In this document: positions 9,860 to 32,340 of the stretch, piece after piece
Position numbering within the stretch: position 1 is the first letter of the stretch
Layout: every line of letters begins with the position of its first letter
Source: Subsaximicrobium wynnwilliamsii
GTDB taxonomy: Bacteria > Bacteroidota > Bacteroidia > Flavobacteriales > Flavobacteriaceae
Direction: 5' to 3'
DNA: 64,000 nt
Assembly: GCF_007997225.1 (NCBI RefSeq)
Contig: NZ_VORM01000004.1
Coordinates: forward strand, 124,001 to 188,000
Notes under the pieces: generated by a model
Database searches by the model: none
What the model was told of the DNA's origin: nothing
What the model saw: the letters and a program-made list of their open reading frames with translations, nothing else
Program-made: the position numbers and the translations under genes

Positions 9860-9902
9860 TGACCCAGATCATTTTGCTCGGCGCTGCTTTGAATTATATT
9901 CG
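9860..9902 (+). promoter_or_regulatory. CRP/FNR-type operator and promoter (site 1)
   Basis: Operator TGACCCAGATCA at 9860-9871, then 23 bases, then TATATTCG at 9895-9902 (one mismatch to TAnnTTTG). It drives 10077-11771 with a leader of about 170 bases. No other feature is seen between 9641 and 10076. Confidence 0.7.
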
Positions 9903-10076
9903 AAGAAGTTTAGAATAACGCAAATCTTCAGATCATGATTGAGAACTAATCAAAAACCATAATGACCCCAGCAGCCTGATGAGCGCACTGGGCACAAAAA
10001 TTCCACTTGCCCGTAACTTGCGGTATAAGGGAAATAACAAACTGAAATTGAATACTAATACTAAAAATCATAAATC

Positions 10077-10463
10077 ATGGCCACAAAAGTCTTATACAAC
10101 GAAAACATGCACTTTGAGCACCAACAGTGGAAAGGAGAACTCGATTTTTGGAAAGACGAGCTAAAATCGTTCAACAACAGATTGAGTGAATTGGTAACCC
10201 GGTGGACAGATAAAAAAATTCTCGAGCAACTTGAGCATTATCAAAATGAATTCATCCTTCATGGGAGCGTCATTGAAGATTTAAATGAGACCATTGAAAA
10301 ACACGAAACCCGTATTGCCGGCCAAAGCAAAACTGGCTCAGATGCATTGGATACCCAAATGACGAAGCAGCATGTGGAGTTCAGAAACCGTATAGAAACA
10401 CAAAGACAAATTTACGCAGAACTTAAAGAAGAGTTTTTTAAATTTCTTGAAAAATACATGTAA
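10077..10463 (+). CDS. Hypothetical helical protein, 128 aa, paralogue of the interrupted gene at 14.7-15.1 kb
   Basis: I do not recognise a named family. The protein is almost entirely charged helix (WKGELDFWKDELKSFNNRLS, then EDLNETIEKHETRIA, then NRIETQRQIYAELKEEFFKF), so a coiled-coil bundle is likely. It lacks a signal peptide and membrane segments. The FWKDE motif and the overall pattern recur in the product of 14735-15141. It is the first gene behind regulatory site 1 and lies 36 bases before a DUF4010 membrane protein, so both are probably induced together. An upstream overlapping ATG at 9979 opens another frame and is not used here. Confidence 0.65.
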   Translation: MATKVLYNENMHFEHQQWKGELDFWKDELKSFNNRLSELVTRWTDKKILEQLEHYQNEFILHGSVIEDLNETIEKHETRIAGQSKTGSDALDTQMTKQHVEFRNRIETQRQIYAELKEEFFKFLEKYM

Positions 10464-10499
10464 CACCATTGAAACCGTTCAGTAATCTCATTAAAATAG

Positions 10500-11771
10500 A
10501 TGCAAACATTTCAAGACCTCAATGAATTAGTGGGCTCTTACATGCTTGGTGTTTTAATTAGCACAGGTGTTGGGCTTATTCTTGGTTTAGAGAGGGAGTT
10601 TGACAAGCTTAAAGACAAAGGGTTTGCAGGCATACGCAGCTTCCCTATTGTTACCATCATTGGTTTTTCTTTAGGGAGTCTTACACAACAATTTTCCAAT
10701 TGGCTAGTCATCATAAGTTTAGGCAGCTTCATTTTGTTTTTGGCATTGTACCATTTTTCTCAAAAACAAGAAGAATATGGGCAAGGTCTCACCACCAATT
10801 TGGCTTTAATAGCCACATTTATTCTGGGGGTCATGGTTTCAGCAGAATTTCTAAAAGAGGCAGTGGCCACAGCCGTGATACTTGTGACCTTGCTTTCCCT
10901 TAAAACCAAGTTCGTTTCAATTATCAGTAATATTACTTCCGTAGAACTTTTTGCATTCATAAAATTCTCAATCATTGCCTTATTGATTCTTCCTTTTTTA
11001 CCAAACAAAAACTATGGCCCAGATAACCTGTTGAACCCTTTTGAAATTGGCTCCATCATCGTCATCGTATCTTTGATCAATTTTATTGGCTACTTTCTAG
11101 TAAAATTTGTAGGCTCTAAAAAAGGGATTATTCTCACAGCAATTCTTGGCGGACTCATATCCAGCACAGCAGTGGCCTGGAATTACGCTTCAAAGAGCAA
11201 AGCGTCGCCAGAATTATCTAAAAAATATAGTGCGGGGATCATCGTGGCATCTGCCATTATGTTTCCTAGACTTGCCCTTTTAACCTATATTTTCAATGCC
11301 GCAATTTTAATACATCTCGCCCTACCTTTCGCACTATTGACCTTGGTCTGTATTGTGGCTACCTTGCTTTTAATGCGAAAGGACGATAATAAACCCGACA
11401 CCAATATTAAACTTGGCAATCCATTAGATATGCTCAATGCCATTGGTTTTGGTGCCATATATCTGCTCATTCTATTTGCTGTGTTTTATAGCAATCAGTT
11501 TTTTGGAGAACGCGGTTTGTACTATTCAGCCTTTATCGCTGGTTTGGCAGATACTGATGCCATTACCATAAGCATGGCAAAATTTTCATTGGATTCTGAA
11601 AAAACACAACTCGCAACATCGGTTATCATTGCAGCCACTCTAAGCAATATGTTGGTAAAACTTGGCATCACCGCTTTAAAAGGCTCAAAAACGGCGGGTA
11701 AACGCGTGAGCTATGCTTTTGGAAGTGTCATTTTGGTGGGGCTAGCTTATATTTTTTTCAACACAAACTAG
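10500..11771 (+). CDS. MgtC/SapB-DUF4010 family inner-membrane protein
   Basis: This 423-residue polytopic protein has an N-terminal MgtC/SapB domain (GVLISTGVGLILGLEREFDK, GFAGIRSFPIVTIIG) and a C-terminal DUF4010 domain (GGLISSTAVAWNYA, GLADTDAITISMAK, IAATLSNMLVKLG). The family is conserved, but its transported substrate is not established; MgtC relatives act in magnesium limitation and acid survival. It is second in a two-gene operon controlled by site 1, which places it among the stress-induced functions of this block. No lesion is seen. Confidence 0.85.
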   Translation: MQTFQDLNELVGSYMLGVLISTGVGLILGLEREFDKLKDKGFAGIRSFPIVTIIGFSLGSLTQQFSNWLVIISLGSFILFLALYHFSQKQEEYGQGLTTNLALIATFILGVMVSAEFLKEAVATAVILVTLLSLKTKFVSIISNITSVELFAFIKFSIIALLILPFLPNKNYGPDNLLNPFEIGSIIVIVSLINFIGYFLVKFVGSKKGIILTAILGGLISSTAVAWNYASKSKASPELSKKYSAGIIVASAIMFPRLALLTYIFNAAILIHLALPFALLTLVCIVATLLLMRKDDNKPDTNIKLGNPLDMLNAIGFGAIYLLILFAVFYSNQFFGERGLYYSAFIAGLADTDAITISMAKFSLDSEKTQLATSVIIAATLSNMLVKLGITALKGSKTAGKRVSYAFGSVILVGLAYIFFNTN

Positions 11772-12563
11772 TGTTGTGTTCAATAAAATAGTTGAAGATC
11801 TAGAGTGTGATATTTAATTGGGGCGTGACCACAAGGGTCAGGCTTTCCGCTACAATTCCTCACACTTCTCCCCATAAACATCGGGAGAAGTGCTGCGGGA
11901 TTTCCGCTGCAATCCTTCACGCAAAGCTTAGCGAGTTTGGTCTTGAGTCTTAAACCAGATACTAATAAACCCAAAACATAATTACCCTTTATCAATAAAT
12001 TATGAGATTCAATAAAATAGGACCTGAAAAACTGAGTGGCTATTGAGCATTGATTTTTATTACTTCTACACCTTTAGATCTTACTTAGCCCTTTCAAGAC
12101 ATCCGTAAAACAAGTCCAAATGCCGGTGCAGCCACAACTAAAGTACCTGTCTTTCGGCATCCTAATAAAAACCTAAAAACAAATGGAGAAAGTAAGCGAG
12201 GTCAACCAGATTTTATTTGGGGGACCCGTTGATGAGCCTAGGAAAAAATAGAATAAATTGGCTCTAGTCTAAAATGGCTGGTAGGGTTGAAATAACCGAT
12301 TTTCGGCGTTTTGGCTCCCATTAGTCCCGATATCTATCGGGAGGGGCAAAAACAAAATGCCCAAAATCCAATTATTTTTTCCCTGATCCTAAAGGTAATA
12401 ATCCGATTTTCTAGGTTTGTGCCAACTTACAAGCTTTATGATTTCAATTTTATTAATAGTAGCAACGCTAGATTGAACTAGAGCCAATAATTTTAACAAA
12501 AAAAAATCAAAAAAAAAAGAGACTATCTTTTAAAATAGTCTCTTTATTGCAATAATATTTTAA
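11772..12563. repeat. Long intergenic region with a repeated hairpin module
   Basis: Two 20-base near-identical direct repeats (TTTCCGCTACAATTCCTCAC at 11844-11863, TTTCCGCTGCAATCCTTCAC at 11901-11920) flank an inverted repeat (ACTTCTCCC at 11864-11872, GGGAGAAGT at 11883-11891). This resembles dispersed intergenic elements seen in flavobacteria. A second small hairpin (CCCGAT...ATCGGG) lies near 12324-12341. A 71-residue minus-strand reading across the repeats is not protein-like. No gene is supported here. Confidence 0.5.
12505..12545 (-). terminator. Terminator of the fasciclin gene
   Basis: An 11-base stem (12516-12526 with 12535-12545, core AGAGACTAT/ATAGTCTCT) is preceded on the plus strand by an A-run, which is a T-run in the minus direction. 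It lies 19 bases past the fasciclin stop codon. Confidence 0.85.
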
Positions 12564-13046: not shown

Positions 13047-13142
13047 AATCTGTTTAAAATTTATTTTATTGGTGATTTATACTCAAAGATAGGGCAATGC
13101 ATATACTGTTTAACTTATTTAACAAAAGATTAAACAAAATTA

Positions 13143-13416: not shown

Positions 13417-13483
13417 GCTGTTTTATTCTATGAATAAATACTATGATCTAACAAAAAAAGGTCAAAAAAAATAGCTTCTGAAT

Positions 13484-13526
13484 TGATCTATATCAGTTTA
13501 AAACTTTGATCTTCACTATACTTTTG
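13484..13526 (+). promoter_or_regulatory. CRP/FNR-type operator and promoter (site 2)
   Basis: TGATCTATATCA at 13484-13495, 23 bases, then TACTTTTG (a perfect TAnnTTTG) at 13519-13526. The start codon of the LOG-family gene is 18 bases further on. Confidence 0.8.
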
Positions 13527-15152: not shown

Positions 15153-15932
15153 TTAGTCATTTGTGGCTTTAGTGCTACATCTGTTAAAAAGACTTATTTG
15201 CAATGCGTTTCGGGCATCCTTCAAAAGTTGTTCAACTTCTTTAACGGTGCTATCTATGACTTGGGCAATCTCATTTATACCGAGACGTTGTTGGGTTGAT
15301 AGCTCAAAAACAGTACGCATGGATACTGGTAGATTGTGCAACACCATTTGAATGTGAAGATTGACAGCTTCCTCACTCAAGTCCTTATCTAGTTTTTCGG
15401 TCATCTCTTTTTCGTCATTTTCAATAAAAACGTGGTTGAGCGTATAATCATTATGATTGTACGAGCTATCATCCAATTCCTCAATCATCAACAAATCACC
15501 ATCACCATCGGTACTGAACTTTTCTTGCATGGCGTCCCATTCGGGTTTAGAATAGTCATCGATATTTTGAAAGAATAGATCATCAAATTCTTCTTCGATT
15601 ATGGTATCTTCCAATAATTCATTGGTTTTTTTAAACACCCATAAATAGAAATCTTTTTCATCTTTAATGGTTTCGATATGGTCATAGATTTCAATAAAAA
15701 GTTGATCTGAAAAATCATCTGCTTTGTACTTTCCTTTTGAGAAATGTCCTTTTTTTATGGCAGTATTAAGCCTTCCGTTAATGTATTTTTTAACTTCTGG
15801 CAATATTTTTAGGAGTTGTTGGTTAAACGTCACTTTATCGTCTTGTTTTTTTGATTTCACAAGCTTTAGATACGTGTGTTCTACAACGATTCTGAAGTTA
15901 CTTTTCTGGGAATAGGTTTCGGTGTTTTTCAT
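15153..15932 (-). CDS. ECF-sigma-like protein, 259 aa
   Basis: The C-terminal 60 residues look like sigma region 4: NLPVSMRTVFELSTQQRLGI followed by NEIAQVIDSTVKEVEQLLKD, a helix-turn-helix after the usual promoter of cell-division-like sequence. The N-terminal part (EVKKYINGRLNTAIKKGHF, DDFSDQLFIEIYDHIE) fits a divergent region 2, with a long acidic linker (residues about 130-190) between. I place the start at the ATG at 15932; a longer reading would begin with TTG at 15983, which overlaps the predicted start of transcription. Site 3 lies upstream, so the CRP/FNR hybrid may switch on a second regulator. Sigma activity itself is not proven. Confidence 0.7.
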   Translation of the reverse strand: MKNTETYSQKSNFRIVVEHTYLKLVKSKKQDDKVTFNQQLLKILPEVKKYINGRLNTAIKKGHFSKGKYKADDFSDQLFIEIYDHIETIKDEKDFYLWVFKKTNELLEDTIIEEEFDDLFFQNIDDYSKPEWDAMQEKFSTDGDGDLLMIEELDDSSYNHNDYTLNHVFIENDEKEMTEKLDKDLSEEAVNLHIQMVLHNLPVSMRTVFELSTQQRLGINEIAQVIDSTVKEVEQLLKDARNALQISLFNRCSTKATND

Positions 15933-15986: not shown

Positions 15987-16029
15987 TAAAGGTGCAATTC
16001 TATGGGTAATTGCAAAATGACTTAGGTCA
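15987..16029 (-). promoter_or_regulatory. CRP/FNR-type operator and promoter (site 3)
   Basis: In the minus direction the operator TGACCTAAGTCA (16018-16029) is followed after 23 bases by CACCTTTA (15987-15994), a near match to TAnnTTTR. It serves the sigma-like operon at 15932-14303. Confidence 0.7.
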
Positions 16030-16095: not shown

Positions 16096-16854
16096 TTATC
16101 TAGCAGTATATCCGCCATCAATAACCAATTCACTTCCAGTAGTAAATTTAGATTCGTCTGATATGAGATAGAGTATTCCATATGCAATGTCTATTGCTTC
16201 ACCAATATGACCTATGGGGTGCAGACTATCCAATTGCTCACGGAATCCTGGTTTATCTTTGCCTAACTCCTCCACTAGAGGTGTCCAAATAAAACCTGGA
16301 TGCACAGAGTTGACCCTAATCTTCTCTTTTGCATATTGTATGGCATCGGTTTTAGACATCACTCTAACCGCGCCTTTAGAAGCATGATATGCTGGCAAAT
16401 CTGCCGCACCGATGATGCCATATATAGAAGAAATATTTACAATACTTCCGCCACCCGATTTTTTCATGTGAGGCACGGCATATTTCGTGCAAAAGAACAC
16501 ACCTTTTACATTAATATTCATAACAAGATCCCATTCTTTTTCAGTTACTTCGGTCGATGGTTTATCTGCTCCGGCTATTCCTGCATTGTTTACGGTGGCA
16601 TCAAGTTTGCCAAATTCTTTAACGACTTCAGCATACACTTTCTCAACTTCTTTTTCATCACTCACATCAAGATGCCAAAATTTTGATACACCACCAGACT
16701 TGTTTATTTTTTCAGCCAATGCCTGACCTTCTTTATCAAGAATATCAACCACTGCCACTTTTGCGCCTTCCTTTGCTAACAAAAGACACGTTTCACGACC
16801 AATTCCCTTTGCGCCTCCTGTGACGATAACCACTTTTTTTTCTGCTCTTTTCAT
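16096..16854 (-). CDS. Short-chain dehydrogenase/reductase (classical SDR)
   Basis: This 252-residue protein is a classical NAD(P)-dependent SDR. It has VVIVTGGAKGIGRETCLLLA (cofactor loop TGxxxGIG), VVDI after the second strand (the Asp favours NAD over NADP), NNAGIAG, the catalytic Ser in NISSIYG and the catalytic YHASKG, and ends LVIDGGYTAR. The closest types are 3-alpha(or 20-beta)-hydroxysteroid or glucose/cyclopentanol dehydrogenases; the substrate cannot be fixed from sequence. It is transcribed alone from site 4, with a short leader. The gene is intact. Confidence 0.9.
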   Translation of the reverse strand: MKRAEKKVVIVTGGAKGIGRETCLLLAKEGAKVAVVDILDKEGQALAEKINKSGGVSKFWHLDVSDEKEVEKVYAEVVKEFGKLDATVNNAGIAGADKPSTEVTEKEWDLVMNINVKGVFFCTKYAVPHMKKSGGGSIVNISSIYGIIGAADLPAYHASKGAVRVMSKTDAIQYAKEKIRVNSVHPGFIWTPLVEELGKDKPGFREQLDSLHPIGHIGEAIDIAYGILYLISDESKFTTGSELVIDGGYTAR

Positions 16855-16882: not shown

Positions 16883-16925
16883 TAAAGTTAACCTGTTGTT
16901 AGGCAAGTAACAATGATACAGGTCA
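16883..16925 (-). promoter_or_regulatory. CRP/FNR-type operator and promoter (site 4)
   Basis: Minus-direction operator TGACCTGTATCA (16914-16925), 23 bases, then TAACTTTA (16883-16890). It lies just upstream of the SDR gene. Confidence 0.8.
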
Positions 16926-17047: not shown

Positions 17048-17090
17048 TGACCTGCATCATTTTGAAACACCAATGAAAAAGGTACTTTTA
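17048..17090 (+). promoter_or_regulatory. CRP/FNR-type operator and promoter (site 5)
   Basis: TGACCTGCATCA at 17048-17059, 23 bases, then TACTTTTA at 17083-17090; ppsA starts at 17120. The operator is identical to that of site 8. Confidence 0.85.
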
Positions 17091-19706: not shown

Positions 19707-19749
19707 TGACCCAGGTCATTTAAAACACCAATAAAGAGCTCTATATTAG
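19707..19749 (+). promoter_or_regulatory. CRP/FNR-type operator and promoter with no protein gene behind it (site 6)
   Basis: TGACCCAGGTCA at 19707-19718, 23 bases, then TATATTAG at 19742-19749. Transcription should begin near 19755 and run into a region with no supported reading frame. Confidence 0.75.
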
Positions 19750-19754
19750 CAGTA

Positions 19755-19955
19755 TACTAGAAATATAAATGTTCTTTGAAATATAAACATATAGATTCTT
19801 GCTGTAGCAATACACTTGAATTTTAGGTGGTAAAAGATTCTTAAAGGCTTTCAAGTTATTAGGTTGGCTTTGCAAAAAGTGTAGGTAATACAAAAAGGTT
19901 CTAAAGAGTGCTTTACTCCAGAAATCTGGGACAGTAAAATGTCCCAGATTTTATT
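19755..19955 (+). ncRNA. Candidate regulated small RNA of about 200 nt
   Basis: The segment starts at the predicted transcription start of site 6 and ends at a perfect 12-base hairpin (AAATCTGGGACA at 19922-19933, TGTCCCAGATTT at 19940-19951, loop GTAAAA) followed by TATTG. No ORF on the plus strand is longer than a few codons with a plausible start. The layout (regulated promoter, about 200 bases, intrinsic terminator) is that of a small RNA such as FnrS in enterobacteria. It could instead be the leader of a decayed gene: a short protein-like stretch (EFVLPKLIFYKFPEMEALID) follows near 20028-20090. Confidence 0.4.
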
Positions 19956-20111
19956 GAAAATATAACATTGGCCAGCGATTGCTGTAAGGCAAACTTGGCT
20001 CATATGAAGCGATTGAATTTGTTTTGCCAAAATTGATCTTTTATAAATTTCCAGAAATGGAAGCTTTGATTGATTGGTTGAAGGTACAGCTAAAATGAAT
20101 CGTTTCATTAG

Positions 20112-20139
20112 GAAACTGGAGGTCTCGGCTTCCAGTTTC
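20112..20139 (+). terminator. Hairpin downstream of the small-RNA candidate
   Basis: GAAACTGGA (20112-20120) pairs with TCCAGTTTC (20131-20139) and is followed by TATTTTAAT. It lies 13 bases after the TGA that ends the protein-like stretch at about 20028-20098, so it may be the original terminator of a decayed gene. Confidence 0.5.
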
Positions 20140-20250
20140 TATTTTAATGCACTATTCAATACTAGAAAAAATAATTATTCAAAAAAGAATACAAAGATGC
20201 TATTAATCAATTTTTGAAGTTAGTCACAAAATTAATTTTTGTAGCAGCAT

Positions 20251-20285
20251 AAAACTGGAAGTTTCGACTTCCAGTTTTTGTTTTT
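20251..20285 (+). terminator. Hairpin with TTCG tetraloop, terminator-like
   Basis: A perfect 12-base stem (AAAACTGGAAGT / ACTTCCAGTTTT, 20251-20278) closes a TTCG tetraloop and is followed by TGTTTTT. It shares the ACTGGA core with the hairpin at 20112, which suggests a duplicated terminator module. Confidence 0.6.
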
Positions 20286-20340: not shown

Positions 20341-20841
20341 CTATTTATCAATCGGCCTGCAAGATAATGCATCAAACGCTTGCAACTCTTGTTCAAAACC
20401 TCTTAAAATCAATACATAATTACCATCATTCAACTGTTTTAAACAGTGCGTGGCTTGGGCTTCACTAGCACCAATTCCTCTAAAAACACCATAAGGGCCA
20501 GAGGATAATGTGGCCAAAGACTTTCCGTTTATTTTATGCAGAAATGTAGATACTAAAGACCCTACAATAAAAACAGATCCCGTTTGTGGATTATAAAAAG
20601 TACCAAAATTCATCGTATTGCCCAAGCGGCTTTCCCAATACGTTTTTATGGTATCTGTATCTTTCGAAATTGCTGTGTTTTTATCAACATGAAATTGCTC
20701 ACTTTTTCCTAATACAGAAACTTGAACTTGTAAAAAGCGTTGCTCTTCTAAGTGTTTCAAAGCATTCTCCAACTGTGGAAGATCTTGATACACTTTGAAA
20801 TAGATCTGTTTTTCTTTTATATTATAATTAGCTGACCTCAT
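20341..20841 (-). CDS. Hypothetical protein, 166 aa, with glycine-rich stress-protein-like segments
   Basis: I start it at the ATG at 20839-20841 (MRSANYNIKEKQIYFKVYQD). A longer reading from 20940 would begin upstream of the operator and -7 box of site 7. The rest reads as soluble alpha/beta (LENALKHLEEQRFLQVQVSV, TGSVFIVGSLVSTF, FRGIGASEAQATHCLKQLND, GNYVLILRGFEQEL). The last block resembles general-stress proteins with a GIPEEKAKxYE-type motif (DUF1269 or GsiB-like 'heat induced stress protein YflT' group), but this is tentative. It is monocistronic and behind site 7, diverging from the YtxH gene. Confidence 0.65.
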   Translation of the reverse strand: MRSANYNIKEKQIYFKVYQDLPQLENALKHLEEQRFLQVQVSVLGKSEQFHVDKNTAISKDTDTIKTYWESRLGNTMNFGTFYNPQTGSVFIVGSLVSTFLHKINGKSLATLSSGPYGVFRGIGASEAQATHCLKQLNDGNYVLILRGFEQELQAFDALSCRPIDK

Positions 20842-20874: not shown

Positions 20875-20917
20875 ACAATATAGCACGCCTTTTAAACGCT
20901 GTAAATGACATAGGTCA
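20875..20917 (-). promoter_or_regulatory. CRP/FNR-type operator and promoter (site 7)
   Basis: Minus-direction operator TGACCTATGTCA (20906-20917), 23 bases, then TATATTGT (20875-20882). It fixes the start of the 166-residue gene, because the upstream ATG at 20940 lies outside the transcript. Confidence 0.75.
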
Positions 20918-20976: not shown

Positions 20977-21019
20977 TGACCTGCATCATTTTGTGTAAAG
21001 CGATCTTTCTCTATCTTTA
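20977..21019 (+). promoter_or_regulatory. CRP/FNR-type operator and promoter (site 8)
   Basis: TGACCTGCATCA at 20977-20988, 23 bases, then TATCTTTA at 21012-21019, leading to the YtxH gene. It sits 59 bases from site 7, so two divergent class II promoters are packed back to back. Confidence 0.85.
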
Positions 21020-21685: not shown

Positions 21686-22756
21686 TCAACCAAACACTGC
21701 AATTGCCTCTAGAGCCTCTATATCTTCTATCACTATCTTTCTGGCAGCACCTATGGATATAAATCCTTCGTCCTTAAATTCGGTTAGCATACGTATAGCT
21801 GTTTCGGTTGCAGTACCTATGAGACCCGCAAAATCTTCTCTTACTATACTAATACCATTCGCTTCATTGTTGGATAGAATACCATTGGTATGCAAATGTA
21901 CTAATGCCCTTGCCACGCGCTGCCTTACCGTAGCAAATGCTACATTCATCATTTCTTCTTGCATGGCCACCAAATTATTAGAGACTAAGCTCACAAATTT
22001 ATTAGCAACGTCTTTGTTACCGTGAATAAGTGTTGTAAAATCTAATTTTGGAATTTCGTAAAGCTCTGCCTCTTCAAGTATTGCAGCAGACTCCATATAG
22101 GTTCCATGGTCTGACAATAAAGATAACTGACCTACAAAATGACCAGTACCGTAAAAACCTGTTACAAATTCTTTTCCTTTTTCTGTGGTTTTAAAGGTCT
22201 TTACGACACCACATTCTATAAAATATAAGGAATTGGCTGCATTACCTTCCATGAAGACGAGCTCCTTCTTGTTGTATTTTTTCGCAGTATAGTCTCTTGA
22301 GAGATGCTCTAAATCCAAGAATTTTGAAGCTTCTTCAATAAATTGGGACACGCCTTTAATGTTGCGAGAAAATTCCATTTTAAGAAAGTCGTGTTTTTTC
22401 AATCGGCAATCTATGGCTTCTAACAATTCAGTTTCACTAAAGGGTTTGGTCAAATAATCGTCGGCACCCAAATTCATGCCTTTTCGCACATCGGTTTTTT
22501 CCGTTTTGGCGGTAAGAAAGATGAACGGAATACTTGCCGTTTTGGTGTTTTTACTCAATGTTTGTAATACTTCATAGCCATTTAGTTCGGGCATCATGAT
22601 ATCGCACACTATAACATCGGGAAGTAGTTTCATTGCCAAATCAAGGCCGATTTTACCGTTTTCAGCAGTGCTTACTTTATAATTTGAGAGCTCTAGGATA
22701 TCTGCCGTGTTTTCACGAACATCCTTATTATCTTCAATAATTAGTACTTTTTTCAT
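21686..22756 (-). CDS. Response regulator: receiver domain fused to a CRP/FNR-type DNA-binding protein
   Basis: The 356-residue protein starts at MKKVLIIEDNKDVRENTADI (ATG at 22754-22756); an upstream ATG at 22798 only adds a basic leader. The receiver domain (1-120) has D52 in VIVCDIMMPELNG and the switch residues in IFLTAKTEK. A cyclic-nucleotide-binding-like domain (about 145-270, ELVFMEGNAANSLYFIECGV) lacks an FNR cysteine cluster, so an oxygen-labile FeS centre is not expected. The C-terminal HTH_Crp (REDFAGLIGTATETAIRMLT) keeps the Glu and Arg that read the TGA core in CRP and FNR. It lies 66 bases after the kinase gene. I infer it is the activator of sites 1-11. Confidence 0.92.
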   Translation of the reverse strand: MKKVLIIEDNKDVRENTADILELSNYKVSTAENGKIGLDLAMKLLPDVIVCDIMMPELNGYEVLQTLSKNTKTASIPFIFLTAKTEKTDVRKGMNLGADDYLTKPFSETELLEAIDCRLKKHDFLKMEFSRNIKGVSQFIEEASKFLDLEHLSRDYTAKKYNKKELVFMEGNAANSLYFIECGVVKTFKTTEKGKEFVTGFYGTGHFVGQLSLLSDHGTYMESAAILEEAELYEIPKLDFTTLIHGNKDVANKFVSLVSNNLVAMQEEMMNVAFATVRQRVARALVHLHTNGILSNNEANGISIVREDFAGLIGTATETAIRMLTEFKDEGFISIGAARKIVIEDIEALEAIAVFG

Positions 22757-22821: not shown

Positions 22822-25800
22822 TTATTCTCTATTATTCAAAGGAAAAGCAATCCAAAAAGTTGTTCCAATATTCAATTGACTTTCAAAACCAATGGATCCA
22901 CCCATTAATTCGGTATAGCTTTTCACAATATTTAGTCCCAATCCGGTACCTTCAAAGTTGGCCGCATTTTTTGCCCTAAAAAACCGATCGAACAAATAGT
23001 GCTGCTCTTCTTTTGGAATACCCATACCGTGGTCTGTGATTTGTATGAGCAGCTTTTCTTGATTTTGAGATATGATAAAATCGATAACTGTCTCTGGCAA
23101 TGCGTATTTTGAAGCATTTGCCAGAAGATTACTAAGGATATGACGTAATAACTTTGCATCCAAATGCACCCAAAGCTCGTTATTAGCCTTACCAAAATCA
23201 ATAGTTTGTCCTTTTTTTAATATGGGATTAATTTCTTTGATCAAGAGTTTCGAAAAGGAAATTAAATCAAACCGTTCTAGCAATGGCTGCACCTTCCCCT
23301 CTTCTAATTTGCTTAAGGAGAGAAAGTCGTTTAGGATAACCACCATGTTTTTTACGTTTCTCTCTATCTGCTCAACGTACTTTTCCCTTTTAAGCTCTTT
23401 TCCCGGTTCATTTTGTTTACCAATTAAAACTGCCGACGTAAGTATGGCACTCAATGGGGTTCTAAACTCATGAGATGCCATAGACACAAAGCGCGACTTG
23501 AGCTCGCTTAATTCCTTTTCCTTTTTAAAGGCATTTTGTATTTTGAATTCAAATGCTTTTTGTTCTGAAATATCATTGTAAACGTGTAGTGCATAACTTA
23601 TTTTATTATGCTCATCATATAAAGGCGCTGTGTTTACAACAAAGTATCTGTTTTTATAAGAAATTTCGAAAGCGAGATGCTGGCCTGTCAATGTTTTTGT
23701 GGTGTATTCTTTTATTTTTGTCTTTCGTTCTTCAGAAAAAACCGTAACGTCATCCACTAAAATTCCTTCCTTACTAAATTCTTTTAAGCCTAATTGTGCT
23801 AATGCTTCCCCTTCAGCAAATGCAACTTTAAAATCTTTATCTATTACAGCAATGAAACCATTTGGGAAGTTTTTTGCAATTTCTGAAGCAATGCTTTTAC
23901 TCGCTATGGCGTCACTTTCTGCTTGCTTGGTTATCATTATTTGGTCTTCGAGATTTAAATTGGTCTCTACCAGTTTCTGCACGGTTTCCATAACTTCCTT
24001 TGTGCGCGCTTCTACTTTTTCTTCTAATTTTTGGGCATAGTCTACAAGTTCCTTTTTGCTTTCTTTCAAGGCTGTGATATTTTGATGTTTTTCTATAGCC
24101 ACACTCGCCAGGTAAGTCATATTCAAAAGCATTTCTTTTTCCTTAGCTGAAGGTTTTCTTTCCAATTTACTGTAAATGGCAAAGGTGCCGAGCACTTGAT
24201 TGGTGGACGATAAAATAGGAAATGCCCAACAGGCCTTTAAACCACTTTTTAGTGCCATGTCTTTATAATCTTCCCAAAGCACATTGGTTGCAATATGAGC
24301 TACAATCACTTCCTTTTTTAAGAATGAAGCTGTACCACTTGAGCCTACTTTTGGACCAATGGCAGTACCTTCAATATAATTGCAAAATGCTTTTGGTAAA
24401 TTCGGTGCGACCAATTTGTGCAGTGTTTTGGTTTCTTTATCTAATAGCAAAATAGTGGCAATACCCTCGTTAAGATGCCCTTCAACAGTTTCTATAATTT
24501 TTTTGCCTATGTCTAGTATGGGTTTGTCTTGCGCTATTAACTCTAATATCTTTTGGGTTTTATCTTTAAGGTCTTCCTCTTTTACCTTAGTGGTCACGTC
24601 ATTTTGAACACCTATAAAGTGTGTTAGTTCATGATTTTCGTTATGTACAGGTGTAATCGTTAGATCGTTCCAAAAAAGCGTGCCATCTTTTTTGTAATTA
24701 CGCAATACCACGTTGCAGGCCTCGCCATTTGCGATAGCGTTTTTCATAATGCCAATCTCCTTTTGATCTCGATCGTGGTTTTGAAGAAAGTTACAATTCC
24801 TACCCAGTGTTTCTGCTTCAGTGTATCCTGTCATTTTCTCAAAAGTGTCATTACAGTAGATAATTCGCGTGTTTTGATGTTGTGCTTCTGCAATTATAAT
24901 ACTATTATTTGCTGAAGCTAGCGCGTTGTTTCTTATGCTTAGCAAGTCCTCCCTGACTTTTTCTTCTGTCACGTCCCTAATAATTGTTAACAGTTCGTGG
25001 TCGTTGATCAATACCACGCGAGCCTCAAAATGTTCTATTCCTTTTTTACCTTGAACGCTATATTCTGCAATCTGCATTGTTCCAGATGCCATGGCCTTAT
25101 CATGTGACTGCTTTATTATTTTATAAACATCTGGAGGCAAAACATTTTTCATGTTTATGCCAATAAAGTCTTTTGGTGGCAGAAATAAATTTTCTGGACT
25201 ATTGACGTAAAACTCAAGATATTTGCCAAATTCATCTTGTATAAACATCATATCTGGAATCGCTTCTAGTAGCGCTTTGGTTTTGAATTCGCTTCTGCGT
25301 AATTCCAGTTCGGTTTCTTTTTTTGCTGTAATGTCTGTTATAAACCCTTCCAAAGCTTCAAGCTTACCATTGCTGTCATAGATGCCACGTCCCAATTCCT
25401 GCATGTATTTAACATGGCCGTTCTTATCTGTGATGCGATAGTTTAAACTATAAGGTTGCCGTTTATCAATCCCATGCTCTGTATCATTCCATACCTTATC
25501 TTGGTCTTCATCAAATATCAAATGCGAAAAATGAACCTTACCCTCCAAAAAGTATTCAGGCGAATATCCTGTTATTTCCTTGCAACCTTCGCTAATGTAT
25601 TCCATCGTCCAATCCCGATCATTTTTACAGCGATACACAATACCTTGCAAGTTATTTAATAAGGTATTGTACCTTCTATTACTTCCTGAAAGTTCATTAT
25701 TAACGTTTTTAATTTTATTGAAATCTTCTTTACGTTTACTGGCATCTCGCAAGAAAGCAATGGTTAGATGTTTACCATCAATGACTGTAGGACTTAAGCT

Positions 25801-26118
25801 TATGTCTAAACTAAATTGGATGCCATTTTTTTTGATACCCCATAAATCCATGTCTTTACTAACGGCTCTTGCTTTTGGATTTTTTGTATAGGTTTCAAAA
25901 TGTCTTTTATGATGTTGCTTAAATTGTTGTGGAATAAGGATTTCAATGTTTTTGCCTGCTAAAATTTCAGGATTGTAACCAAATAACTGTTCGCAAGCCC
26001 GATTTGCCATGACAATGCCTCCGTTTTCATCAACTACTAAAATACCTTCAACAGATGATTGAAAAATATTTTGAAAAAGATCTTCGTTTGGAACATCAGT
26101 CATCATAGAAATTGGCAT
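22822..26118 (-). CDS. Multi-PAS/GAF sensor histidine kinase
   Basis: This 1098-residue protein has no membrane segment, so it is cytoplasmic. It has serial PAS domains with PAC motifs: PAS1 at about 10-130 (DENGGIVMANRACEQLFGYN), then PAS at about 150-275, 280-390 and 395-520 (the last with GRNCNFLQ as in LOV-like PAS). A GAF domain follows at about 535-680, a coiled coil, then another PAS at about 740-860. The kinase core is HisKA with H883 in SMASHEFRTPLSAILTSAVL, then an N box (HILSNLLANASKYA), G1 (ITDHGMGIPKE) and G2 (GTGLGLNIVKS). The GRNCNFLQ motif has the cysteine that forms the flavin adduct in LOV domains, so blue-light or redox sensing through FMN is possible. It is encoded between mscS and the response regulator. 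Confidence 0.93.
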   Translation of the reverse strand: MPISMMTDVPNEDLFQNIFQSSVEGILVVDENGGIVMANRACEQLFGYNPEILAGKNIEILIPQQFKQHHKRHFETYTKNPKARAVSKDMDLWGIKKNGIQFSLDISLSPTVIDGKHLTIAFLRDASKRKEDFNKIKNVNNELSGSNRRYNTLLNNLQGIVYRCKNDRDWTMEYISEGCKEITGYSPEYFLEGKVHFSHLIFDEDQDKVWNDTEHGIDKRQPYSLNYRITDKNGHVKYMQELGRGIYDSNGKLEALEGFITDITAKKETELELRRSEFKTKALLEAIPDMMFIQDEFGKYLEFYVNSPENLFLPPKDFIGINMKNVLPPDVYKIIKQSHDKAMASGTMQIAEYSVQGKKGIEHFEARVVLINDHELLTIIRDVTEEKVREDLLSIRNNALASANNSIIIAEAQHQNTRIIYCNDTFEKMTGYTEAETLGRNCNFLQNHDRDQKEIGIMKNAIANGEACNVVLRNYKKDGTLFWNDLTITPVHNENHELTHFIGVQNDVTTKVKEEDLKDKTQKILELIAQDKPILDIGKKIIETVEGHLNEGIATILLLDKETKTLHKLVAPNLPKAFCNYIEGTAIGPKVGSSGTASFLKKEVIVAHIATNVLWEDYKDMALKSGLKACWAFPILSSTNQVLGTFAIYSKLERKPSAKEKEMLLNMTYLASVAIEKHQNITALKESKKELVDYAQKLEEKVEARTKEVMETVQKLVETNLNLEDQIMITKQAESDAIASKSIASEIAKNFPNGFIAVIDKDFKVAFAEGEALAQLGLKEFSKEGILVDDVTVFSEERKTKIKEYTTKTLTGQHLAFEISYKNRYFVVNTAPLYDEHNKISYALHVYNDISEQKAFEFKIQNAFKKEKELSELKSRFVSMASHEFRTPLSAILTSAVLIGKQNEPGKELKREKYVEQIERNVKNMVVILNDFLSLSKLEEGKVQPLLERFDLISFSKLLIKEINPILKKGQTIDFGKANNELWVHLDAKLLRHILSNLLANASKYALPETVIDFIISQNQEKLLIQITDHGMGIPKEEQHYLFDRFFRAKNAANFEGTGLGLNIVKSYTELMGGSIGFESQLNIGTTFWIAFPLNNRE

Positions 26119-26167: not shown

Positions 26168-27229
26168 TTAGGTTTCTTTTTGGCTTATGGGTGGTTCTCG
26201 TCTTATTTTTGGCAAAGATTCTGGGAACTGCTCTTGAATGAAAGTTATGAGCTGTTCCCTAATTTGGCAACTTAAATCCCACACGCTCGCTGCATTCTTA
26301 GCACTAAATGTGACTCTTACTTCAACGCTAACGGCATCGGCGTTGGTTACTAATAATTGGGCTACTTTTTTGTCCCATAGTATATTTTCTCCAATAATAT
26401 CAAGACATTTTTTTCGCAGCTCAGCCACTGGAAACGTATAATCGACATACAAATAAACGGTGCCTATCAATTCGGGTGAATTGAAGCTTCTGTTAATAAA
26501 ATGATGGTCGTTAAAATAGTTTAATGGCAATACCAGTCGTCGCCAATCCCAGGTTTTTATTACCACATAAGTAAGTGTGATGTCCTCTACAGTGCCAAAC
26601 TCGCCTTCAATAACCACCTCATCATCAATTTTAATAGGCTGTGTAAACGCGATTTGCATGCCTGTTATGAGGTTAGCAATGGATTTTTGAGCAGCAACAC
26701 CTGCAATAATACCAATAACGCCAGCAGAGGTAAGAATGGTTGTGCCGATGGTTCTTACCGCTGGGATATTCCATAAAATAGTAGCAGTGGCCAGTGTCAC
26801 AATAACAACGATAGACGCACTCTTTATAAAACGCATCTGGGTAATTGCTTTTCGTTCTTTAGCTTTATGGCTGCTATTGGTTGTGAATTTTTGTTTTACT
26901 ATTTCCTCTACGGCTCTTATAATTGCAAGCAAGACCCAAGTGAAATTGACAATAATGATAACTTCAATCACAGTATGCCAAACCTTACTTATACTGAATA
27001 AACCAAACGAGCTATAAATAAATAAAATAGGCAAGAGAAGTTTTACGGGTGTTTCTAAGTGCTTTAACAATTGTGTTTTTAAAACCGTTGGCTTTTTTTT
27101 GTTATAGGTCTTTAAAAGATAAAAGACCACCAATTGTAAAACCAATCCCACAAGAATACATACGGCAAAAGTTATGACAATTTTTAACCAAAGGTCGGTA
27201 ATGCTTAATTTTGAGAAAATAGTATCCAA
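26168..27229 (-). CDS. MscS family mechanosensitive channel
   Basis: The 353-residue protein has four N-terminal membrane segments, then the pore-lining helix and beta domain of MscS: TILTSAGVIGIIAGVAAQKS, LITGMQIAFTQPIKIDDEVV, EGEFGTVEDITLTYVVIKTW, NRSFNSPELIGTVYLYVDY. These channels open under membrane tension to release solutes in hypo-osmotic shock. It is the first gene of an apparent operon mscS-kinase-regulator (50 and 66 base gaps), and site 9 lies right in front with a leader of only about eight bases. Co-transcription with a two-component system suggests that envelope stress and the regulon are linked (inference). Confidence 0.92.
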   Translation of the reverse strand: MDTIFSKLSITDLWLKIVITFAVCILVGLVLQLVVFYLLKTYNKKKPTVLKTQLLKHLETPVKLLLPILFIYSSFGLFSISKVWHTVIEVIIIVNFTWVLLAIIRAVEEIVKQKFTTNSSHKAKERKAITQMRFIKSASIVVIVTLATATILWNIPAVRTIGTTILTSAGVIGIIAGVAAQKSIANLITGMQIAFTQPIKIDDEVVIEGEFGTVEDITLTYVVIKTWDWRRLVLPLNYFNDHHFINRSFNSPELIGTVYLYVDYTFPVAELRKKCLDIIGENILWDKKVAQLLVTNADAVSVEVRVTFSAKNAASVWDLSCQIREQLITFIQEQFPESLPKIRREPPISQKET

Positions 27230-27242: not shown

Positions 27243-27285
27243 TAAAAATAGCTGTCTTAAAGCAATTTAAATATGACATCTATCA
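27243..27285 (-). promoter_or_regulatory. CRP/FNR-type operator and promoter of mscS-kinase-regulator (site 9)
   Basis: Minus-direction operator TGATAGATGTCA (27274-27285), 23 bases, then TATTTTTA (27243-27250). It lies ahead of the operon that encodes the presumed activator, so it predicts positive autoregulation. Confidence 0.75.
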
Positions 27286-27429: not shown

Positions 27430-27472
27430 TGACCAGGGTCATGTTAAGATCAATCCCAAGGACTTAATTTTA
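27430..27472 (+). promoter_or_regulatory. CRP/FNR-type operator and promoter (site 10)
   Basis: TGACCAGGGTCA at 27430-27441, 23 bases, then TAATTTTA at 27465-27472. It serves the HMA protein and perhaps the superoxide dismutase behind it. It sits 144 bases from site 9 in the opposite direction. Confidence 0.8.
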
Positions 27473-28665: not shown

Positions 28666-28797
28666 TTTTCGATTTGTCCTTATAATTTTATCGATTGTTT
28701 GTAAAACATCATAATGCTATAAATGGTTCCATTATAGCAACATCTCTATTTCATCACCAAAAACAAATATTTGTTTTTTATTCTGTGTAAATCAGTG

Positions 28798-28848
28798 AAA
28801 TCTGCGGGATAATTCTTCCATGCGCTTATGTTTAGTTCCCGCAGATTT
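28798..28848. repeat. 12-base inverted repeat between sod and the ATPase gene
   Basis: AAATCTGCGGGA (28798-28809) and TCCCGCAGATTT (28837-28848) are perfect inverted arms separated by 27 bases. It resembles dispersed intergenic repeats of Bacteroidetes and may work as a terminator for the two convergent genes. The rest of 28666-29064 holds nothing else I can support. Confidence 0.55.
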
Positions 28849-29064
28849 CGCAGACTTGCAAGCCTGCAGGCTAGTGTTCGCATATTTTTTTTGACAATAT
28901 GACAAAAAATGGGTACACAATAATTTTAATCCTGCCGATTGTTTTTTTCAATTAAAACATCACAGCGTTTGTATTGAGACAGATTTAAAAAGACTCTAAT
29001 AACAAATAAAACCCGGGCTAACTGTGGCGTCAACTTGGACAATACCTGTCCATAAAACTATCAT

Positions 29065-31710
29065 TTAAAATGTACCTCCCAAACGCTTTATAATTTGTGA
29101 TAAAGCCAATGATCCTAATGCGAAAACAATAACCCAACCTATTTGTTCTAAAGATAAATTGATTAAGAAAAGTGCGTTTGCCACTGGTGGAATATAATAG
29201 GCACCTATTGTCAAAAACAGGGATATACCAATAGCAGACCAAACCCAAGGATTTTTTATGACTTCGTTTTTAAAAAAGGAGACCTTATTTTCAGCCATAT
29301 TAAAAACATTAAACAATTGGGCTAGTACCAAAGTATAGAATGCCATATTGTTTATTATTTGGGCTGAAAACTCCAATCCAAAGTAGGCATACGCCGTAAT
29401 ACCCACAACCGCTGCGGTTATACTAATCCCATAAATAATGGTAGACGACCACAGTTTTCGGGTCAAAATGGGTTCGTTTGCTTTTCTGGGTGGTCGTTTC
29501 ATAATATCCACTTCGCCTTTACCCATTCCTAAGGCTAATGCCGGAAATATATCTGTAACCAAATTTAAAAATAAGATTTGTAGCGGTAACAAAGGTGCGG
29601 GTAAACCCAATAAAGCCGCTAAACCTACAGAAACCACCTCTGCCAAATTGCAGGATAATAAATAGACTACAAATTGCCTGACATGATCAAAAACAGCACG
29701 CCCTTGACTTATTGCCAATTCCATGGCGGTAAATTTGTCATTTTTAAGAACAATATCCGCAGCTTCTCTGGCAGCTTGCGTACCTCTAATGCCCATTGCA
29801 ATACCAATATCTGCCTTGCGTAATGCAGGAATATCATTGATACCATCGCCAAACATGCCAACAACGTTTTCGTTCTCCTGGAAGAGTTGAACCAGTTTTA
29901 ACTTCTGTTCTGGTGTTACTCTTGCAAAGACTGAAGCATCCAAAATTTTTGTTTGATTAGTGCGGTGTTCACCTTCAAACTGTAAATCTTTTCCATGTAT
30001 AATGCTATTTGAAGTCGCATTTGTGGATATTAAGCCTATTTCTTCAGCAATTTTTCTGGCAGTTCCAGGATGGTCTCCTGTCATCATAACCACTTTTATA
30101 CCTGCTTCTTTGTAAACTTTTATGGTGGATGCCACATCTTCTCTGGCTGGATCTAAAAATCCAATGATGCCTATAAAAGTCAACTCTGATAATAAATCGT
30201 TTTTATTTGGCTTGGTTTCGTGATTGCGGAACGCAAAAGCCAATAGTCTTAATCCTTGAGATGCTAAATCATTTTCACGACTAATCCATTCTTTTTTGTT
30301 TTTGAATTCTTCTGATGTGTTATTCTTCAAAATCGTATTGCAGTGATGTATCACACTTTCAAAGGCGCCCTTCACATAAACCGTATAACCCTTGGCTTCA
30401 TTTTTATTTAATGTTGCCATCAACTTACTTTCCGTTGTAAAAGGGATCTCCATGATTTCAGGATGCTCTTCTTTGACTTTTTTGGGATTGAAATGTACTT
30501 TTTCAGCAAATTGAATGAGTGCCAATTCAATACTGTCACCGCGCAGTTCTTCAGCATTCAAAATAACATTGTTACACAACATACTGGTCATCAACATGGC
30601 ATTAAAAGCTTCAGATTTCTCTAATTCGTTGAAGTAAGCATGGGCTTTGTTTTGGATTTCGGTTACTGTTTCATCTTCAAAAACCAAAGTATGCACCTGC
30701 ATTTTATCTTCGGTAAGTGTGCCTGTTTTATCTGTGCAAATTATGTTTGTAGCTCCCAAGGTCTCTACCGCTTCCATTTGTTTAATGATGACCTGTCGCT
30801 TGGATAGTTTGAGCATTCCTCTAGCCAAGGCAATGGTTGCAACCACTGGAAGTCCTTCTGGGATTGCTGCAACAGCTAATGCTACTGCTGTTTCTATGAT
30901 TAAAAGCATGTCCTGCCCTCTTAAATATCCGGTAAAAATAATGAGGACGGCAAAAATTAAGGTCAGCCAAATAAGCCACTTGCTCAATTCACTCAGCTTT
31001 TTCTCTAATGGTGTGCGCTGCTCTTCAACCTCGCTTCCCATTTGCTGAATTTTACCAAGTTGCGTATGCAATCCTGTTTCAACAACGATTGCTTTCGCAG
31101 AACCTTGCTCTACCGTCGTTCCTTTAAATAGCATATTTGTCCTATCAGGCAAGGTTGTGTTTTTTGGAAGCGAATTTATGGTCTTAAGTATGGCTCTACT
31201 TTCTCCGGTTAACGAAGCTTCTTTAATGGCTAAATTCTCAATGGTAATAAGGCGAGCATCAGCAGAAACCACGTCTCCAGCTTCTATTATAATGATATCT
31301 CCAGGAACTAATAATGATGATTTTATAGCTTTTATTTTTCCGTCGCGCAAAACGCTACTTTCTGTGATGCCCATTTTACGAAGGGCTTCCAAAGAACGAA
31401 GACCTTGTAATTCCATTATAAATCCAATAATCACGGTAATTAAGATCACCGTAATTATAGCGATGGTCTCTGGCAAATCGTCATTGAAAAAGAAGGTAAG
31501 CACTGCTGCTACGGCAAGAATGAAAATAATGGGATCGTTAAATTGATCCATAAGGATTTTTAGTTTTGTCTTACCCGCTTTAGCAGCGATTTCATTTTTT
31601 CCATGTTTTTTTATACGTTGTTTTACCTCGTTTTCAGTTAAGCCATCAGTGAGATTGCTATTTAATTTTTCTACAACAGCTGCTATGGAAAGCGCAAAAG
31701 GTTCTAACAT
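29065..31710 (-). CDS. P-type cation ATPase, calcium-type (P2A-like)
   Basis: This 881-residue pump has the cation ATPase N-terminal domain, an actuator with LTGESRAI, the phosphorylation motif with D327 in ICTDKTGTLTEDKMQ, a nucleotide domain with KGAFESVIHHC, MTGDHPGTARKIAEEIG, and MFGDGINDIPALRKADIG. It has about ten membrane helices, including PEGLP in helix 4. The order matches SERCA/PMR1-like Ca2+ or Mn2+ exporters; the exact ion is not decided. It lies downstream of the Hsp20 gene in the same direction, separated by a terminator-like hairpin, so it may be expressed by read-through from site 11. Confidence 0.92.
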   Translation of the reverse strand: MLEPFALSIAAVVEKLNSNLTDGLTENEVKQRIKKHGKNEIAAKAGKTKLKILMDQFNDPIIFILAVAAVLTFFFNDDLPETIAIITVILITVIIGFIMELQGLRSLEALRKMGITESSVLRDGKIKAIKSSLLVPGDIIIIEAGDVVSADARLITIENLAIKEASLTGESRAILKTINSLPKNTTLPDRTNMLFKGTTVEQGSAKAIVVETGLHTQLGKIQQMGSEVEEQRTPLEKKLSELSKWLIWLTLIFAVLIIFTGYLRGQDMLLIIETAVALAVAAIPEGLPVVATIALARGMLKLSKRQVIIKQMEAVETLGATNIICTDKTGTLTEDKMQVHTLVFEDETVTEIQNKAHAYFNELEKSEAFNAMLMTSMLCNNVILNAEELRGDSIELALIQFAEKVHFNPKKVKEEHPEIMEIPFTTESKLMATLNKNEAKGYTVYVKGAFESVIHHCNTILKNNTSEEFKNKKEWISRENDLASQGLRLLAFAFRNHETKPNKNDLLSELTFIGIIGFLDPAREDVASTIKVYKEAGIKVVMMTGDHPGTARKIAEEIGLISTNATSNSIIHGKDLQFEGEHRTNQTKILDASVFARVTPEQKLKLVQLFQENENVVGMFGDGINDIPALRKADIGIAMGIRGTQAAREAADIVLKNDKFTAMELAISQGRAVFDHVRQFVVYLLSCNLAEVVSVGLAALLGLPAPLLPLQILFLNLVTDIFPALALGMGKGEVDIMKRPPRKANEPILTRKLWSSTIIYGISITAAVVGITAYAYFGLEFSAQIINNMAFYTLVLAQLFNVFNMAENKVSFFKNEVIKNPWVWSAIGISLFLTIGAYYIPPVANALFLINLSLEQIGWVIVFALGSLALSQIIKRLGGTF

Positions 31711-31747
31711 AATAATTGGATTTTAATGATAGCAATAAGGTAAAAAT

Positions 31748-31797
31748 TAAAAAAACCCTCTTGCCAAATCTTTTATTTAAGTTTTGGGCAAAGGGTG
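31748..31797 (-). terminator. Terminator-like hairpin between hsp20 and the ATPase gene
   Basis: ACCCTCTTGCC and GGGCAAAGGGT form a mostly paired stem (about 31755-31765 with 31785-31795), followed in the minus direction by a T-run. It may attenuate transcription from the Hsp20 promoter into the ATPase gene. Confidence 0.65.
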
Positions 31798-31825
31798 TTT
31801 TGAGCGCATGCAAAAAGATTGCGTA

Positions 31826-32259
31826 CTAAGAAACCTCAATTTTTTTTGGTTTGCGCTGTTCAGATGCTACTTTTTTAGTAAGATTAAAACGCAAAACACC
31901 ATCTTTATAATGTGCCTTAACATTTTCTTCTTTCACAGAGTCTGGAAGCATTAAGCTTTTCTCAAAAGAACTATAACTGAACTCTTGACGTGTGTAGTTC
32001 TCTTTTTTTTCGGCTTCGGAAGAAGAATTTTCTGCTGAGATATGTAAGCAGCCATCATCAATGGTGACTTCAAAATCTTTTTTGGAAAATCTGGGTGCAG
32101 CCAATTCAACTTCAAAAGCGTCATCGGCTTCTTTAATATTCAATGCTGGTTCATTCAACTGATTGTCCCAAGGTTGATTGTTAAAGAAATCGCTATTGTC
32201 AAAAAAATCTGATCTGATAAGATTCCCCCATGTCTTCTGTTAAATTTTACGAGTGACAT
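31826..32259 (-). pseudogene. Small heat shock protein (Hsp20) gene with a 5' frameshift
   Basis: The alpha-crystallin domain is intact (NIKEADDAFEVELAAPRFSK, VTIDDGCLHISAE, FEKSLMLPDSVKEENVKAHY, KDGVLRFNLTKK). The true start is the ATG at 32257-32259 (MSLVKFNRR). Near 32230 one base is missing, so the frame runs off (RRHGG). The other frame continues as TWGNLIRSDFFDNSDFFNNQ and PWDNQLNEPALN. Relatives read RRPW continuously at this place, which fits loss of one C. Translation from an internal ATG at 32158 would give a 110-residue protein without its N-terminal arm. The gene is probably impaired or the base call is wrong. It is driven by site 11. Confidence 0.8.
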
Positions 32260-32297
32260 AATTTAAAAAATTTAGAGATTAAACACTTCAGTGGCTA

Positions 32298-32340
32298 CTA
32301 ATTTATGATGAACCAAGTGTTTTGGAAATGACCTAGGTCA
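32298..32340 (-). promoter_or_regulatory. CRP/FNR-type operator and promoter (site 11), perfect palindrome
   Basis: TGACCTAGGTCA at 32329-32340 is a perfect 12-base palindrome. In the minus direction 23 bases separate it from TAAATTAG (32298-32305), upstream of hsp20. Confidence 0.8.

Follow-up and report, generated by a model that had tools for sequence, protein, structure and literature searches.

A fixed operator-to-promoter spacing points to a probable receiver-CRP stress regulon with a LOV kinase and a structured RNA in Flavobacteriaceae

What turns on the stress-related genes that lie together in an island of the Subsaximicrobium wynnwilliamsii genome? The initial annotation of a 64-kb stretch of this genome (the window, 64,000 nucleotides [nt] in full) had described eleven promoters between positions 9860 and 32340, each with a TGA-N6-TCA operator 23 bases ahead of a box resembling the Bacteroidetes -7 element, and had assigned them to a hybrid regulator encoded among them, in which a receiver domain is fused to a Crp-type DNA-binding part (receiver-CRP). 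Our computation established this promoter code, its conservation in related genomes, and its link to the receiver-CRP gene. It also revealed two features that the initial annotation had missed, a LOV domain in the adjoining kinase and a structured RNA behind one of the promoters. We propose, with a probability of roughly 70% judged from the sequences, that the island forms an autoregulated two-component stress regulon driven by the receiver-CRP hybrid.

RESULTS

Direct inspection found TGA-N6-TCA at all 11 claimed coordinates, in every case exactly 23 bases (N23) ahead of an 8-base element (Table 1). Relative to the -7 box consensus TAnnTTTR, six of these elements are exact, four have one mismatch, and one has two. 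The operators form a palindrome with a majority sequence of about TGACCTAGGTCA, in which the fourth base is T or C. The spacing is far beyond chance, as had been claimed: of the 24 oriented TGAYN4RTCA operators in the window, 10 are followed at N23 by a box that departs from the consensus at one position or none, compared with a mean of 0.195 in 200 dinucleotide shuffles, which reached a maximum of 3 at any spacing from 0 to 60. With the looser operator TGAN6TCA, a box of the same quality stands at N23 in 11 of 54 cases (shuffle mean, 0.985; top count at any spacing, 6). One of these 11, at 10481(-) and outside the original list, is antisense to the end of gene 10077 and looks like a chance occurrence. 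All of the promoters except 19707 lie ahead of an open reading frame (10 of 11); promoter 19707 has no protein gene downstream.

An operator centered at -41.5 occupies the position of a class II activator. A promoter map of Flavobacterium psychrophilum (PMC9723704) places the TAnnTTTG box at -12 to -5; with the box there, N23 puts the operator at -47 to -36 and its center at -41.5, in agreement with the earlier estimate of about -42. The spacing in the sequence hence predicts class II placement of the operators.

The same geometry recurs across the genome and the family. In the whole 4.9-Mb genome, TGACN4RTCA is followed by TAnnTTTR at a distance of 8 to 38 bases 23 times, 15 times at exactly N23, and in one further match the operator is likewise followed by a box at N23. 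The idea of a purely local regulon was not borne out: the exact TGAYN4RTCA-N23-TAnnTTTR pattern occurs 26 times genome-wide, only 6 of them within 9860-32340, and some copies lie near other Crp-type genes. When one mismatch was allowed, the genome contained 60 matches, compared with 18 for the reversed pattern. A search of 299 family genomes for the regulator identified 21 other genomes with a close orthologue (47-77% identity), and up to 40 kb was fetched around 20 of these (20 islands, 771,802 nt, three of them shortened by contig ends); the 21st, G202, was left out for its short contig. Exact boxes stand at N23 in the islands 152 times, compared with 1.42 times on average, and never more than 5, at each of 60 other spacings. 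Of the 303 operators in the window and islands together, 239 are flanked at N23, on one or both sides, by a box with no more than one mismatch; 26 are flanked in this way on both sides, so that a single palindrome can serve two divergent promoters. At the 152 island sites, T makes up 93% of the bases directly after the operator and 66, 64, and 49% at the three positions that follow, and the remaining spacer positions have no conserved base. In 28 further named loci with receiver-CRP relatives (L109-L136), exact boxes at N23 number 60, compared with about 0.9 for each other spacing, and 18 of the 28 loci have one or more.

The presumed activator encoded at 21686-22753 scores above the cut-offs for PF00027 and PF13545 and hence belongs to the CRP/FNR superfamily. 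Members of this superfamily read the TGA half-site with a Glu and an Arg of the recognition helix; the corresponding Glu318 and Arg322 are present in 22/22 orthologues (here and below with the window included) and 9/9 paralogues. Both sets keep the phospho-acceptor Asp52 and the active-site Lys104 without exception, Asp9 is likewise found in 22/22 orthologues, and position 82 is Thr in 19 and Ser in 3. The FNR oxygen sensor has four Fe-S cysteines. The hybrid has three cysteines, and Cys182 is kept in only 2/22 orthologues; the hybrid is therefore no Fe-S FNR protein.

The number of sites tracks the regulator. The pattern TGACCN3RTCA-N23-TAnnTTTR has 123 matches in the 22 orthologue genomes (mean, 5.6), 133 in 116 genomes with only a paralogue (mean, 1.15), and 28 in 161 genomes with neither among the matches listed (mean, 0.17), groups that are not independent by descent; its reversed version has 9 matches across all 299 genomes. 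Three lines of evidence, the spacing, the conservation across 20 islands, and the co-occurrence of sites and regulator, thus give good support to the proposed Crp/Fnr-type class II regulon centered on the hybrid. The operators fall into two classes, represented by TGACCTAGGTCA and TGATAAATATCA: of the 126 half-sites ahead of island targets, 65 have C/G at the inner core position, compared with 11 of 90 at paralogue loci (named genomes, exact boxes). Because the core is C/G at island targets and A/T at paralogue loci, the hybrid need not bind every N23 site. At loci L022 and L023, A/T-core N23 sites stand before NirK-, CcoN-, CcoI-, and universal-stress-like genes (named by eye), near a stand-alone Crp-type gene; perhaps these belong to a separate oxygen or nitrogen-oxide regulon with the same promoter geometry.

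Which genes does the code precede? With the window included, an N23 site lies upstream of hsp20 in 19/19 genomes that have the gene and of YtxH in 13/13, followed by ppsA (6/8), the helical protein (8/11), the small protein p20341 (5/7), and MscS and SDR (4/5 each). The presumed kinase-regulator operon has a site before its first gene in 19/21, two of these more than 400 nt away. DUF4010 (0/5) and the Ca-ATPase (0/12) lack an upstream site, and both are second genes in the window. Clustering of the genes directly behind sites in the window and islands gave hsp20 (19 genomes), p20341 and YtxH (13 each), kinase (12), sigma-like (11), patatin and universal stress protein (9 each, the latter with 20 sites), CMD and helical (7 each), ppsA (6), erythromycin-esterase/PCMT (5), SDR, MscS, PfkB, and PNPOx-like (4 each), and BON and peroxiredoxin (3 each). 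A Pfam scan of 30 target proteins, 17 representing clusters and 13 drawn from the 44 singletons with 110 residues or more, returned a match for 25. The sigma-like gene has a deviant box that begins with C, both in the window and in each of the 9 orthologues with 36% identity or more; a remote relative (27% identity) does not keep it. YflT was considered as the identity of the 20341 protein and rejected, as the match was weak (E-value [E], 0.074). In the window the start codon region of hsp20 (31826-32258) is in a different reading frame from the remainder of the gene, reflecting either a sequencing error or a real frameshift; each of the other 18 islands that have hsp20 shows an open frame beginning at an ATG. 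A pta-ackA pair (6301-9640) lies directly upstream of the island, and pta has its own N23 site in G108 and G201.

Promoter 19707 led to a different type of product. About 390 bases behind it recur in related islands behind like promoters, with TTCTTT 16-23 bases past the box, and Winogradskyella thalassocola has three tandem copies (L109 15037-16386), each with its own operator and promoter. An alignment of 11 copies contains two terminator-like hairpins, which suggest a short and a long form of the RNA, plus further helices. Pair-preserving two-sided changes occur in 35 of 50 pairs of the structure, which was derived from the same alignment, and the covarying cells number 80, compared with 25.2 ± 3.9 in shuffled and 10-18 in slid alignments; alignments A2 and A3 omit an RNA-like copy of G011 and the second G061 copy. 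Rfam gave no match over the gathering score in window positions 9000-34000 and nine related loci (best subthreshold E, 0.76), and the RNA at 19754-20150 apparently represents a new family. A small protein as the product was rejected by eye: the longest frames, 18-72 codons in 13 copies, are not common to the genera.

We built a covariance model, R1, from the 3' part of the RNA; 8 of the 36 genomes that it matches supplied sequences for it. At E ≤ 5e-6, a cut chosen after seeing the table, it matched 36 of the 138 genomes for which a receiver-CRP gene is listed and none of the other 161. At E ≤ 1e-3 it matched 50 genomes, of which 7 have no receiver-CRP gene and match only between 1.5e-5 and 1e-3. 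Distances were taken from 49 matches in 33 genomes (E ≤ 1.1e-6, including some opposite-strand or overlapping duplicates) to 72 of the receiver-CRP matches: a receiver-CRP gene is no more than 6 kb away for 26 matches (19 genomes) and no more than 45 kb away for 35 (27 genomes). At 12 RNA loci outside the model, the operator-N23-box arrangement stands at the same place upstream in 8, three lack it, and one begins at a contig end. Promoter 19707 is predicted to switch on this structured RNA, which would act as a regulated arm of the response. A second, partial R1 match lies at 20194-20279 of the window (36 bits; E, 2e-5).

The receiver-CRP gene is preceded head to tail by a sensor kinase gene, and one promoter stands ahead of both. 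The LOV domain of the kinase has 7a6p as its best solved-structure match (E, 4.5e-35; 56 of 115 residues identical) and keeps the adduct Cys and the Asn, Asn, and Gln that contact flavin mononucleotide (FMN), all four. In the 299 family genomes there are 46 LOV matches at E ≤ 1e-30, of which 43 lie on the same strand as, and 1.1-2.0 kb from, a listed receiver-CRP gene. The fetched flanks of the other three revealed two more pairs, bringing the total to 45 of 46 near a same-strand receiver-CRP gene, with G289 as the exception; among the 24 weaker LOV matches listed, none is within 6 kb of a listed receiver-CRP gene. The Cys and both Asn are present in 45 of the 46 copies and the Gln in 37. In G289 (L196), the LOV kinase has no adjoining receiver-CRP gene and lies about 2.5 kb from an RNA copy; this island seems to be split. 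The S. wynnwilliamsii genome has a second LOV kinase/receiver-CRP pair on contig C54 (L021 8097-10621), near universal stress and MscS-like genes with N23 operators. The kinase is below the cut-offs of two NCBIfam models, which describe other whole proteins (YtvA, 170.6 of 250 bits; blue-light kinase, 118.3 of 450 bits). Its first PAS domain resembles DosP/FixL (E, 9e-14). We rejected a FixL/DosP-type heme oxygen sensor there, as the aligned positions that we take to be the heme ligands are Thr and Lys.

Table 1. Promoters, RNA elements, and principal genes of the island, in window coordinates (box mismatches relative to TAnnTTTR)
Feature	Position	Strand	Elements	Genes behind or remarks
Promoter	9860..9902	+	operator 9860-9871 TGACCCAGATCA; box 9895-9902 TATATTCG (1 mismatch)	helical protein 10077; DUF4010/MgtC 10500
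Promoter	13484..13526	+	operator TGATCTATATCA; box TACTTTTG (exact)	LOG-family protein 13544
Promoter	15987..16029	-	operator TGACCTAAGTCA; box CACCTTTA (1 mismatch; first base C, kept in close orthologues)	sigma-like gene
Promoter	16883..16925	-	operator TGACCTGTATCA; box TAACTTTA (exact)	SDR 16096-16854
Promoter	17048..17090	+	operator TGACCTGCATCA; box TACTTTTA (exact)	ppsA 17120
Promoter	19707..19749	+	operator TGACCCAGGTCA; box TATATTAG (1 mismatch)	no protein gene behind
Promoter	20875..20917	-	operator TGACCTATGTCA; box TATATTGT (2 mismatches)	conserved small protein 20341-20838
Promoter	20977..21019	+	operator TGACCTGCATCA; box TATCTTTA (exact)	YtxH 21046
Promoter	27243..27285	-	operator TGATAGATGTCA; box TATTTTTA (exact)	mscS-kinase-regulator operon (presumed autoregulation)
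Promoter	27430..27472	+	operator TGACCAGGGTCA; box TAATTTTA (exact)	HMA protein 27519; superoxide dismutase 27946
Promoter	32298..32340	-	operator TGACCTAGGTCA; box TAAATTAG (1 mismatch)	hsp20 31826; Ca-type P-ATPase 29065
Structured noncoding RNA, ~390 nt	19754..20150 (ends estimated)	+	5' GTTCTTT near 19771	
RNA hairpins	hairpin 1, about 19922-19951; hairpin 2, about 20111-20139	+	hairpin 2 terminator-like	model R1 match 19915-20158
Sigma-like gene	15153-15932	-	long acidic linker	extracytoplasmic function (ECF)-like, below family cut-offs (TIGR02937 E, 3e-9)
Response regulator REC-CRP	21686..22753	-	receiver, cNMP-binding-like, Crp-type helix-turn-helix (HTH)	presumed activator
Sensor histidine kinase	22822..26118	-	several PAS, LOV (residues 396-520, window 24559-24933), GAF, HisKA, HATPase	
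MscS-type channel gene	26168..27229	-		first in presumed operon with kinase and regulator

DISCUSSION

How might the island work? We hypothesize that blue light, via a flavin-cysteine adduct in the LOV domain, alters the activity of the kinase and that other cues probably enter jointly through the PAS and GAF domains. Phosphotransfer to Asp52 would allow a receiver-CRP dimer to bind at -41.5, where it would touch RNA polymerase as a class II activator. The hsp20, YtxH, ppsA, superoxide dismutase, channel, and sigma-like genes and the ~390-nt RNA would then be turned on together with the sensor operon itself, and this output would ready the cell for a nongrowing or energy-poor state. We infer binding, activation, phosphotransfer, the response to light, and the function of the RNA from the sequences, and of these steps the light step is the weakest link, with about an even chance of being right. 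The broader proposal, for which we have slightly less than even confidence, is that Flavobacteriaceae may possess a blue-light-gated general stress and dormancy response, built from a LOV kinase and a receiver-CRP protein with a family-specific structured RNA as a regulated arm. Light would be read before the cell invests in resting, independently of the alternative-sigma routes of other phyla.

How well does the hybrid-driven regulon stand up to other explanations? That AT-rich intergenic DNA produces the operator-box pairs through chance or composition deserves practically no weight: the loose operator does give 0.985 N23 pairs per shuffled window, but the shuffle, reversed-pattern, and other-spacing controls already refute this explanation. 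Another Crp/Fnr protein, the stand-alone one on contig C10 or the receiver-CRP protein on C54, could be the main occupant of the sites, with the hybrid as just one target of an oxygen- or nitrosative-type regulon. We consider this quite improbable, given the distinct C/G core of the island operators, a pattern count that tracks the presence of the orthologue, and the clustering of sites around the orthologue in 20 islands. Yet the genome encodes four proteins with a Crp-type HTH (HTH_Crp_2) over the cut-off, so that some N23 sites elsewhere probably belong to other Crp-type proteins. The N23 architecture elsewhere in the genome precedes universal stress, oxidase-like, and nitrite-reductase-like genes (named by eye), and the operators of the kinase operon lean to the A/T-core paralogue class (C/G in 5 of 18 half-sites). 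The four HTH proteins and the kinase-operon operators also count against the regulon as we propose it, and several other findings do the same. With the window included, N23 sites are few upstream of LOG (2/4), pta (2/5), and HMA (1/2) and absent upstream of ackA (0/5) and hyp14303 (0/8), and the receiver-CRP gene itself is preceded by a site in 1/21. The co-occurrence counts are uncorrected for relatedness and genome size, and the A/T-core set consists of exact boxes only. An exact N23 site is lacking at ten of the 28 named loci, including those of Mucilaginibacter, Jiulongibacter, Arcticibacter, and Sphingobacterium. Outside the family, receiver-CRP relatives occur in Crocinitomix, Mucilaginibacter, Jiulongibacter, Arcticibacter, and Chitinophagaceae, and the promoter geometry there may differ, as several such loci are without an N23 site.

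A further explanation accepts the hybrid-driven regulon and doubts the light: LOV would be a flavin redox or scaffold domain, and the signals would enter through the other PAS and GAF domains. The retention of the adduct Cys in 45 of 46 copies speaks against it, as do the Thr and Lys at the presumed DosP heme-ligand positions, and we rate it as rather unlikely. It is favored by the several additional PAS domains and the GAF domain of the kinase, the first PAS resembling DosP/FixL, and by general stress and energy targets, with no photolyase or cryptochrome among the 30 target proteins scanned. No LOV was found in a neighboring kinase in 5 of the 20 orthologue islands, and of three named orthologue loci the LOV-kinase motif was found at L109 and not at L110 or L111; the Gln is replaced in 9 of 46 copies. 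Among the matches listed, 108 of 151 receiver-CRP genes have no LOV within 6 kb, which indicates that light is not the sole input. These observations weigh on the light step of the receiver-CRP regulon that we favor.

If the proposal is correct, a Bacteroidota family would have a concrete stress switch, consisting of one sensor pair, a rigid promoter code, and an RNA family, with a target list that can be read from a genome with a 43-base pattern. For a group with nontextbook promoters, it would supply an exact grammar of class II promoters, and it would add another link between LOV and general stress beside the sigma-factor routes of Bacillus and Caulobacter. In the open-licence literature (titles and starts of abstracts), we found neither a LOV kinase with a receiver-CRP protein in Bacteroidota nor an N23 Crp-type promoter code there, nor the LOV kinase/receiver-CRP combination with such a target set and RNA.

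Taken singly, the parts (LOV kinases, Crp-type regulators, receivers, class II activation) all belong to known kinds. Escherichia coli CRP/FNR class II promoters likewise have TGA-N6-TCA centered at -41.5, read by a Crp-type HTH with Glu and Arg in the recognition helix. In contrast, the protein described here has a fused N-terminal receiver and no Fe-S cysteine set, and its promoters have the Bacteroidota -7 box and a single exact spacing across dozens of cases. The FixL-FixJ-FixK system also joins a PAS sensor kinase, a receiver, and a Crp-type output; here receiver and Crp-type part are one protein, LOV is present, and the heme-ligand positions are not kept. The target set can be read as one of stress-and-rest genes, much like that of the mycobacterial DosR dormancy regulon, which shares hsp20, universal stress proteins, PfkB, CBS, and a P-type ATPase beside hsp20, but has an unrelated regulator family and heme sensor kinases. 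The promoter map of F. psychrophilum has the same TAnnTTTG box at -12 to -5, and its main text does not contain the words FNR or palindrome (PMC9723704). LOV proteins are tied to general stress in YtvA/sigma-B and LovK-LovR/sigma-T (PMC4844311), and the island described here resembles these systems in linking a LOV protein with general stress genes. It differs from them in using a putative receiver-CRP activator on -7-box promoters where they use an alternative-sigma cascade; its predicted targets do, however, include a sigma-like gene.

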